In this document: positions 1,413 through 3,673 of the stretch, one piece after another
Layout of the letters: the number at the start of each line of letters is the position of its first letter
How positions within the stretch are numbered: the stretch's first letter is position 1
NCBI GenBank assembly: GCA_003577005.1
Contig: QEUW01000420.1
Coordinates: 1 to 6,564, forward strand
Length of the DNA: 6,564 bases
Source of the DNA: Chloroflexota bacterium
GTDB taxonomy: Bacteria; Chloroflexota; Anaerolineae; Caldilineales; Caldilineaceae
Direction: 5' to 3'
Position numbers and translations under genes: made by a program
The notes under the pieces: generated by a model
Told to the model about the DNA's origin: nothing
What the model saw: only the letters and a program-made list of their open reading frames with translations
Databases searched by the model: none

Positions 1413-2375
1413 ATGACACAGATAATCCAGCAGGAGAACACAAATCAGGCGCCGGCGGCTACGGTCCGCACACGGCCTTTGGTGCAACGTGAAGGCAACC
1501 GGCTTGTGGTTTTCTTGCATTCGCTGGCCTTTGTACTGGGCTTCGCCACGGTCTTCACGCTGATTGGGTCGGCGGTGGGGTTGTTGGGGCAGGGGCTCAA
1601 CCAATACCTGCCGACGATCCAGCGGCTGGGTGCGATTCTGCTGGTGATCTTTGCACTGGTCACGCTAGGTGTCTTCCGCTGGCTGGTGGATCTCATCCGC
1701 CGGAAGGTGGATCTGCGCACCAACCCGGCGGCAGAAGCGCTGGTCAGCGTTCTTGACTTTTTTAATGCGTTGCTCTATACCGAAAAGCGCGTGGCCGACA
1801 TGCACCGTGTCAACCGGGGGTGGGGATATGCCAGCAGCTTTTTGTTAGGTGTCAGCTTTAGCGCCGGCTGGGTGCCGTGCGTGGGGCCGATCCTGGCGAG
1901 CATTCTCTTTCTCGCCAGCGACAGCGCCACGGCCGGACAGGGCGCATCGCTGTTGGCGATCTATAGCCTGGGGCTTGGCATTCCTTTTTTGCTGACGGGG
2001 GCAGCTTTTGGCACTACCACCGGCATGTTGCGGCGGCTCAATCGCCATGCGAATATCGTCGGTATTATCAGTGGTATCTTTCTCCTGTTCGTGGCCTATC
2101 TGTTGTGGACAGGCACACTTGCCACGTTGACCACCCGCTTCGATGCAGTCAACCGGCTGATTTTTGCCATGAACGATTGGGTGCTGGCAGGCGAAGATTG
2201 GGTGAGTAGTCTGGCAGGTGCGGGCAGCGACCTCTTTAGCCTGAGCTTGCTGGGCGCTGCGCCGCTGGCGTTGTTTGCCGGCATTATCAGCTTTCTGAGC
2301 CCGTGTGTTTTGCCATTGGTGCCGGCCTACATCGGTTATCTGAGCGGCGCCGCAGTCGGCAGTGGCAAAGAGTAA
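1413..2375 (+). CDS. ccdA: CcdA/DsbD-type thiol-disulfide membrane transporter with circularly permuted helix order
   Basis: CcdA proteins carry electrons from a cytosolic thioredoxin across the membrane to reduce extracytoplasmic thioredoxin-like proteins and apocytochrome c. The family signatures are all present in 320 residues: HSLAFVLGFATVF (36-48), GWVPCVGPIL (152-161, Cys156), YSLGLGIPFLL (184-194), LRRLNRHANIVGIISG (206-221) and SFLSPCVLPLVPAYIGYL (293-310, Cys298). In ordinary CcdA the SPCVLPLVP helix is TM1 at the N-terminus; here it is at the C-terminus. The order is TM2-TM3-TM4-TM5-TM6-TM1, with a linker of about 45 residues before the final helix. Basic residues cluster in the N-terminus, the 90-136 loop and the 206-212 loop, which fits N-in/C-in topology. 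GAGG at 1404-1407 serves the ATG, and an in-frame TAA at 1395-1397 rules out an upstream TM1. It heads an operon with the next two genes. Confidence 0.88.
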   Translation: MTQIIQQENTNQAPAATVRTRPLVQREGNRLVVFLHSLAFVLGFATVFTLIGSAVGLLGQGLNQYLPTIQRLGAILLVIFALVTLGVFRWLVDLIRRKVDLRTNPAAEALVSVLDFFNALLYTEKRVADMHRVNRGWGYASSFLLGVSFSAGWVPCVGPILASILFLASDSATAGQGASLLAIYSLGLGIPFLLTGAAFGTTTGMLRRLNRHANIVGIISGIFLLFVAYLLWTGTLATLTTRFDAVNRLIFAMNDWVLAGEDWVSSLAGAGSDLFSLSLLGAAPLALFAGIISFLSPCVLPLVPAYIGYLSGAAVGSGKE

Positions 2376-2648: not shown

Positions 2649-3338
2649 ATGCAATCAAACGCTGATCGAGAACCAACAACCCATTCACCAGCCCAGCGGC
2701 GCGATTTCGAGTCAACCGTGACAAGAGTTGCCGGCGCCCTGGTGCTGGGCATAGCCCGTCACTGGTTGGCGATCTTCAACCTGGCGTGGGGAACTTATGT
2801 CGTCTTGCCCTTTCTGGCGCCGGTCTTGATGAGTGTTGGCTTGACGGCGCCGGCGCGGGTGATTTACGCCGTCTATTCGATCATGTGCCACCAGTTGCCT
2901 GACCATAGTTATTTTCTCTTTGGGCCGGAAGCAGCGCCCAATCAACTGGCCCTAGAGGCCGCGGGGATGGCGGCCGGACTGGGACCGTTGGCGCAACGAC
3001 AGTTTGTGGGAAATGAGTTCCTCGGTTTCAAGGTTGCGATCTGCCAGCGCGATGTGGCGATCTACGGTTCAGTCCTGGCAGCGGGTCTCCTCTTTGCGCT
3101 GGTGCGCAAACGGCTGCCAATGCTTAGCTTCCGCTGGTATTTGCTCCTGCTCATCCCCATGGCGCTCGACGGTGGCACCCAGTTGTTTGGCTGGCGCGAG
3201 AGTACCTGGCTGCTGCGCACCCTCACCGGCGCGCTCTTTGGCGCCGCTTCGGTCTGGCTGGCCTACCCGTACATCGACGAGGCGATGCAAGATGTCGTGG
3301 TGACGGAAGAGCAGCGCCAATTCGCCGCTCCGGCGTAA
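2649..3338 (+). CDS. DUF2085 family multi-pass membrane protein, function unknown
   Basis: The 229-residue protein has hydrophobic segments at about 39-62, 137-155, 161-178 and 188-206, and hydrophilic ends. It shows the hallmarks of DUF2085: a CHQLP motif (Cys80, His81, Gln82) after the first membrane segment, CQRDVAIYGS (Cys132, Arg134) at the start of the next, PMALDGGTQLFGWRES (170-185), and an arginine plus small-residue helix LRTLTGALFGA. The family has no established biochemical role to my knowledge. The two conserved cysteines and a histidine flank a 50-residue loop and could bind a metal or haem or form a redox pair; this is inference. The ATG follows the glutaredoxin-like stop by 3 nt, so coupling is likely, and its operon with a thiol transporter hints at a redox or cytochrome-maturation job. 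The region between the motifs (93-127) looks long and loosely conserved. Confidence 0.78.
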   Translation: MQSNADREPTTHSPAQRRDFESTVTRVAGALVLGIARHWLAIFNLAWGTYVVLPFLAPVLMSVGLTAPARVIYAVYSIMCHQLPDHSYFLFGPEAAPNQLALEAAGMAAGLGPLAQRQFVGNEFLGFKVAICQRDVAIYGSVLAAGLLFALVRKRLPMLSFRWYLLLLIPMALDGGTQLFGWRESTWLLRTLTGALFGAASVWLAYPYIDEAMQDVVVTEEQRQFAAPA

Positions 3339-3402: not shown

Positions 3403-3482
3403 GAAACTATCTCAAAATCGGTTGTGGCTCTGGAATGCTCTCGAACAGCACCGGTGTGGCACAGAGATTTTGAGATAATTTC
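3403..3482. repeat. 80-bp element bounded by a 17-bp inverted repeat
   Basis: GAAACTATCTCAAAATC (3403-3419) pairs with 3466-3482 in 16 of 17 positions; the spacer is 46 nt and codes for nothing obvious. The right arm ends inside the TTCTTAGAAG repeat that starts the next element, so the two repeats abut or are nested. It could be a small non-autonomous transposon end pair, a remnant of a larger element, or a long-loop hairpin after the DUF2085 gene. No T-run supports a terminator. Confidence 0.6.
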
Positions 3483-3515
3483 TTAGAAGCTGTTTGAAAA
3501 GGTGGGCGCCACGCT

Positions 3516-3546
3516 GGTGCGATACACCTGCAAGGTGCGTTGCACC
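3516..3546 (+). repeat. Hairpin repeat unit 1 (inside the MITE-like element)
   Basis: This 31-nt unit has two 14-nt arms around a GCA loop. Read as + strand RNA, 13 of 14 positions pair, including two G-U wobbles. The inner stem is CACCT/AGGTG and the outer stem GGTGC/GCACC. Confidence 0.75.
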
Positions 3547-3567
3547 TTTGAAGCACCCGGCGACCCA

Positions 3568-3598
3568 GGTGCATCGCACTCTTCGAGTGCAACGCACC
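3568..3598 (-). repeat. Hairpin repeat unit 2 (inside the MITE-like element, inverted)
   Basis: This has the same 31-nt architecture as the unit at 3516, with inner stem CACTC/GAGTG and a TTC loop. On the + strand two positions are A-C or C-A mismatches. On the - strand they become G-U wobbles and all 14 positions pair, so this copy is assigned to the - strand. Confidence 0.72.
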
Positions 3599-3636
3599 GA
3601 GCTTTTCAAACGGCTTCTTAGAAGGTACGCAGTTGC

Positions 3637-3673
3637 CCAGGTGCGATACACTTGCAAAGTGCGTTGCACCTGG
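3637..3673 (+). repeat. Hairpin repeat unit 3 (outside the MITE-like element)
   Basis: This copy lies 14 nt beyond the right TTA of the MITE-like element. Its 31-nt core (3640-3670) matches the unit at 3516 except where the inner stem changes to CACTT/AAGTG. The outer stem is extended to CCAGGTGC/GCACCTGG, giving the longest stem of the three. Beyond it, 3674-3768 shows nothing recognisable. Confidence 0.75.

Follow-up and report, generated by a model that had tools for sequence, protein, structure and literature searches.

The stretch of DNA analysed here (the window) comprises 6,564 nucleotides of contig QEUW01000420.1 from a Chloroflexota bacterium of the family Caldilineaceae (assembly GCA_003577005.1), and it carries on the forward strand, at positions 1413 to 2375, a gene for a rearranged form of CcdA, a thiol-disulfide electron carrier of the DsbD/CcdA family. 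The encoded protein of 320 amino acids is best explained as a natural circular permutant, which most likely still works as a carrier and which represents a form that has arisen more than once; confidence in this reading is put at 0.92. In this mechanism, the ancestral CcdA chain would have been cut in the cytoplasmic loop between the first and second transmembrane helices (TM1 and TM2), and a linker at the outer face of the membrane would have connected the old chain ends, with TM1 and its redox cysteine now standing last. Each helix would keep its orientation in the membrane, and both new ends would be cytoplasmic. A thiol donor in the cytoplasm, for which the neighbouring glutaredoxin-like protein is a candidate, would supply electrons; these would travel through Cys156 and Cys298 to a thioredoxin outside the cytoplasm, by which apocytochrome c is kept reduced.

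The reading frame opens with ATG and ends at a clean stop, and an in-frame TAA is read upstream of the start, at 1395 to 1397, as a preliminary description of this DNA, made from the sequence alone, had stated. The protein matches the Pfam family PF02683 (DsbD_TM) at 64.3 bits, against a cut-off of 27.1, in three stretches, and contains both an SPC-type cysteine (C298) and a GW(T/V)PC-type cysteine (C156). The order from TM1 to TM6, which is a feature of the solved member and is not demanded by homology, is absent from it, and because of this rotated helix order the protein is classed as a circular permutant and not as an ordinary CcdA. In a phmmer comparison with 5vkv_A, the solved CcdA of Thermus thermophilus, three blocks are found, each collinear with the solved chain and together in swapped order (independent E-values of 1e-5, 2.9e-4 and 3.6e-14). 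Residues 35-94 (positions 1515 to 1694) correspond to 5vkv 41-101, the canonical TM2-TM3, and residues 141-243 (1833 to 2141) to 5vkv 112-210, the canonical TM4-TM6. A linker of 41 residues follows (2142 to 2264, delimited by the block ends), after which residues 285-313 (2265 to 2351) correspond to 5vkv 7-35, the canonical TM1. The codon of Cys156 (TGC, 1878 to 1880) lies within a GWVPCVGP motif and that of Cys298 (TGT, 2304 to 2306) within an SPCVLPLVP motif; all these parts are on the forward strand.

The same order is recovered with a profile built from 66 canonical rows. A single copy of the window protein matches profile positions 46-133, 112-236 and then 8-42, and a doubled copy yields one domain (positions 8-133) at residues 283-433, spanning the join at residue 320. 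Doubled proteins from two further permuted groups (groups A, the window's own, to F are those of the trees discussed below) give one domain each, positions 5-236 for P0242 of group F and 7-234 for P0121 of group B, both spanning their joins, while three doubled shuffled sequences do not match the profile. Canonical order is thus regained across the join in the doubled-query comparison that the preliminary description had proposed, and its central claim of a circularly permuted CcdA is borne out by the swapped blocks together with the doubled query. At the level of sequence, the open reading frame (ORF) is confirmed as a canonical CcdA chain with its first helix placed last.

The AlphaFold model of the window protein has a predicted local distance difference test score (pLDDT) of 77 and a predicted template modelling score of 0.73. 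The moved helix reaches a pLDDT of about 78-85, with a break near the SPC motif, and linker residues 241-280 lie at 59-70. The best solved match of the model is again 5vkv, over residues 31-263 only; a search of a viral fold library returned nothing at E<=0.001, and the model of the group F protein was too poor for use.

Cys156 and Cys298, whose retention had been claimed beforehand, are invariant in 52 aligned permuted rows of groups A to D, as are P155, P297, P301 and P304, and the matching cysteines likewise do not vary across 48 rows in which group F is represented. In 10 of 10 gene pairs, the proportion of nonsynonymous differences is below that of synonymous differences, whether counted over the entire gene or over the moved helix alone (30 codons), where the ratio is highest for L030/L031 (0.174 against 0.818); several of the synonymous values are near saturation. 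Judging from these pairs, purifying selection acts on the moved helix. Charge distribution is also informative: among 119 group A proteins, the N-terminus of about 31 residues holds a mean of 4.0 lysines and arginines, versus 1.2 in the TM6-TM1 linker of about 38 residues. The corresponding N-terminal means are 2.5 in group B and 2.1 in group F, versus 0.7 and 1.0 in the longer linker. These counts fit cytoplasmic chain ends, and the N-in/C-in topology earlier predicted from charge thus finds support in sequence.

The permuted form extends far beyond the window. A search of about 5.8 billion proteins with the window protein lists 120 best matches, the query among them, and all have the permuted order, so that the close homologues sought for comparison include none with TM1 first. 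The 80 genome loci found with the window protein divide into 51 canonical and 29 permuted ones, the latter encoding 28 distinct proteins; a motif-pattern test of order overlooked many loci, and these counts therefore use sequence or profile matches. A second set, started from group B (about 258 amino acids), contains 118 permuted proteins among 120 listed matches, the remaining two lacking one motif by pattern. For L163, of group F, the listed matches divide cleanly: the best 31, counting L163 itself, are without exception permuted, and the 89 that follow are without exception canonical. An assembly error confined to L163 is thereby discounted. Across the three permuted sets, 269 of 271 distinct clusters among the matches listed have the permuted order.

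In a sample of 251 genomes from the phylum to which G002 (source of the Chloroflexi record L003) belongs, at least 15 carry a permuted ORF, a lower bound because only part of the matches was fetched and read. Two further phyla, making three in all, were surveyed at E<=1e-40, with matches in 6 of 299 and 18 of 297 genomes; helix order was read in the fetched loci (L149 had no readable ORF), and the rest were judged by span. One permuted gene was found in each: the gene in G375 (phylum of a Clostridium record) clusters with those of group B (L144/L162), and the gene in G841 (phylum of a Syntrophus record) is L163. Since the cut-off was strict, divergent permuted forms outside Chloroflexota would be missed. 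The permuted form is common to many Chloroflexota and has more than one origin, which goes beyond what could be seen from the window alone.

Several observations accompany this distribution. G002 holds a group A and a group B permuted CcdA in one genome. The group B gene of G375 (L162:3977-4774) belongs to another phylum, for which both transfer and contamination are possible. In group D proteins (L014:5665-6684, L131:3554-4690), the TM2 and TM4 motifs lie 170-175 residues apart; this spacing is 83 in L019, 112 in L001, and 158 in the canonical L038 and L046.

The setting of the gene bears on its function. Upstream, on the same strand, lie the 3' end of ccmC (1 to 180), a fragment recognized by phmmer to neighbouring ORFs and itself without a Pfam hit, and ccmD (268 to 414; TIGR04391, CcmD family, 36.1 bits against a cut-off of 24, no Pfam hit). 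The L002 ORF that matches the ccmC fragment is above the cut-off for PF01578 and below that for TIGR01191 (ccmC). Downstream follow genes for a glutaredoxin-like protein with a CSLC motif (2391 to 2645, PF05768) and a DUF2085 membrane protein (2649 to 3338, PF09858). This ccmC-ccmD-ccdA-glutaredoxin-DUF2085 neighbourhood is kept in the window and in 7 of 11 group A loci, L001-L007, all of which match ccmC, ccmD, glutaredoxin and DUF2085; no match to any of the four was seen in the stretch examined of L008-L011. In L002, the order is ccmE, an ABC ATPase gene, ccmB, ccmC, ccmD, permuted ccdA, glutaredoxin and DUF2085, and in L019 a thioredoxin-like gene stands directly upstream of permuted ccdA. 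The nearby cytochrome c maturation genes support membership in the CcdA family without strictly defining it. Neither draft genome, that of L001 or that of L005, has any match at E<=1e-5 besides the permuted gene.

According to PMC3884852, CcdA takes up reducing equivalents from thioredoxin in the cytoplasm and hands them to a thioredoxin-like protein outside, which reduces apocytochrome c; by analogy, an identical electron path may be proposed for the permuted protein. Because the neighbourhood is kept, the permuted protein most likely still works as CcdA, with an N-in/C-in arrangement. A different possibility is that the permuted proteins have given up CcdA-type electron carriage for another role, for example as a sensor or a sulfur-related carrier. 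The group B locus L103 has rhodanese and DUF3105 genes as neighbours, and the loci of groups C and E, with most of group B, have no ccm-neighbour match in the stretch examined, many of these loci being only a few kilobases long. Against such a change of role stand the invariance of both redox cysteines and their flanking prolines in the permuted rows and the persistence of the ccm-glutaredoxin-DUF2085 neighbourhood in group A, and it is considered improbable.

The number of origins was approached through trees for which all proteins had been put into one helix order, the groups being named after the tree had been seen. Permuted rows fall into the six groups A to F, scattered among canonical rows. 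Five changes of order are needed in a 130-row quick tree (one forced by starred branches), five in a 73-row tree (two forced), four in a 91-row tree that includes other phyla (all four forced), and six when the moved helix is left out (three forced). The clearest case of a separate origin is L163, which falls within canonical proteins from another phylum, joining five of these rows with support of 100/98 and a wider set of 12 with 100/99, and which is flanked by phosphoribosyltransferase and lptF/G genes, like its canonical relative L164; the best canonical match of group F covers about 77% of the query at 66% identity. The cuts observed all fall in the TM1-TM2 loop, in a test based on the order of TM1 and TM4, which was also able to see cuts between TM2 and TM4; cuts elsewhere were not looked for. 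On these sequence comparisons, two independent origins are firm and three or more are likely. It is highly probable that CcdA has been permuted independently at least twice, and probably three to six times, in at least two phyla, the cytoplasmic TM1-TM2 loop being cut each time and the topology passing from N-out/C-out to N-in/C-in with helix orientations and function unchanged.

The competing view holds that a single ancient permutation, inherited and then lost or reversed, accounts for all permuted CcdAs. Several points weigh in its favour and against recurrent permutation: every cut seen falls in one loop; the quick tree forces a single change; and the groups were named post hoc, and the sequences are short. 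Moreover, sister pairs are not rejected for A+D (p 0.37), A+E (p 0.37), D+E (p 0.42) and B+C (p 0.25 and 0.08), the p value for A+B is 0.087 or 0.037, depending on the set, that for A+C is 0.045, and A+D+E form one side of a branch, weakly, at 53/64. However, groups A-E as one clade are rejected by the approximately unbiased test in the 73-row set (p 0.0022), as they are in the 91-row set (p 0.0011) and with the moved helix left out (p 0.027). Placing F with B is worse by 103 log-likelihood units, and L163 remains nested in canonical rows and shares the gene neighbours of the canonical L164, so that group F comes near to uniting permuted and canonical members in one young, well-supported clade. 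A single origin is, therefore, very unlikely, and recurrent permutation is preferred.

An artefact, either a chimeric assembly or a frameshift of a normal or duplicated ccdA, has a negligible probability, for although the sources are mostly metagenome assemblies, the identical order recurs across clusters and loci from many genomes, the ORF has a clean start and stop, and the gene is under purifying selection. Frameshift and assembly error were rejected on these grounds; the earlier argument against a simple frameshift is upheld, and the sequencing error that had been named as a possible refutation does not explain one order in many genomes.

How a permutation may have come about is suggested by L163, whose linker reads, by eye, as a canonical C-terminal tail, a short spacer and a canonical N-terminal head. 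Because the tail is joined to the head in this way, the sequence fits an origin by tandem duplication and fusion, followed by loss of the outer parts, as the preliminary description had supposed. The linker agrees with this proposal, but neither an intermediate nor a remnant was found. Around 49 permuted genes, the flanking DNA was searched with profiles (three forward frames, to 0.9 kb on either side) and by self-comparison at the DNA level (to 1.5 kb), and no convincing remnant of a lost TM1 or TM2 copy was detected; L011 and L162 gave weak matches, and the truncated L036 gave its own cut-off start. No seven-helix or doubled intermediate with two TM1 motifs is present among proteins P0001-P0240, and none of 118 ORFs has two TM1 profile matches.

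Relative to known systems, the window protein shares with 5vkv and the canonical members of PF02683 three homologous blocks and redox cysteines in the TM1 and TM4 motifs, and it differs from them in the order TM2-TM6 followed by TM1, in its long linker and in the predicted N-in/C-in topology. Canonical Chloroflexota CcdAs (L012, L013, L032) belong to the same family and have a DUF2085 neighbour, but TM1 comes first; the TM2-TM4 spacing is 110 residues in L012 versus 112 in the window's group. Unlike the window, L012 also has, at 5995-7812, a canonical CcdA and a C-terminal part with a WCGPC motif in one ORF (by eye). The membrane domain of DsbD has the canonical helix order, and the window protein has a weak NCBIfam match to DsbD (29.6 bits, under the cut-off of 330). 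In PMC3884852, DsbD is described with eight helices and two soluble domains, its membrane domain having an electron path in common with CcdA.

Reordered helices within one fold are also represented by the SWEET/PnuC topological isomers and by an engineered permuted rhodopsin, as described in PMC7162841; these cases are remote or engineered, whereas permuted CcdA is natural and has high-identity homologues with canonical sisters. No published report of a circularly permuted CcdA or DsbD was found in a literature search that covered few subscription journals, and no mention of permutation was found in a paper on the LysE superfamily that includes DsbD (PMC4608589). Permuted proteins carry plain names such as 'cytochrome c biogenesis protein' in their sources, which explains why the reordering went unnoticed in routine annotation. 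If the independent origins are true, CcdA would be a polytopic helical membrane protein that nature has circularly permuted repeatedly, and its permuted and canonical sisters would share one gene neighbourhood. Such pairs, close in sequence, would make helix order, first-helix insertion and topology directly testable, and the repeated cutting and rejoining in related bacteria would constitute a rare natural test of how far membrane proteins tolerate reordering.

Many canonical relatives keep DUF2085, and in L032, L035, L037 and other canonical loci a glutaredoxin-like domain and DUF2085 match one ORF, unlike the window, where they are separate; the single ORF suggests a thiol role for DUF2085. 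Between ccmD and permuted ccdA, a HicA (PF07927)/HicB (PF05534) toxin-antitoxin pair at 531-1135 interrupts the ccm gene cluster. An Rfam scan of the window returned nothing. An apparent small repeat element at 3403-3673, between DUF2085 and an acyl-CoA ligase gene, contains two inverted repeats with arms of 30-34 nucleotides (82-83% complementary), one of 17 nucleotides, and two direct copies of 32 nucleotides.
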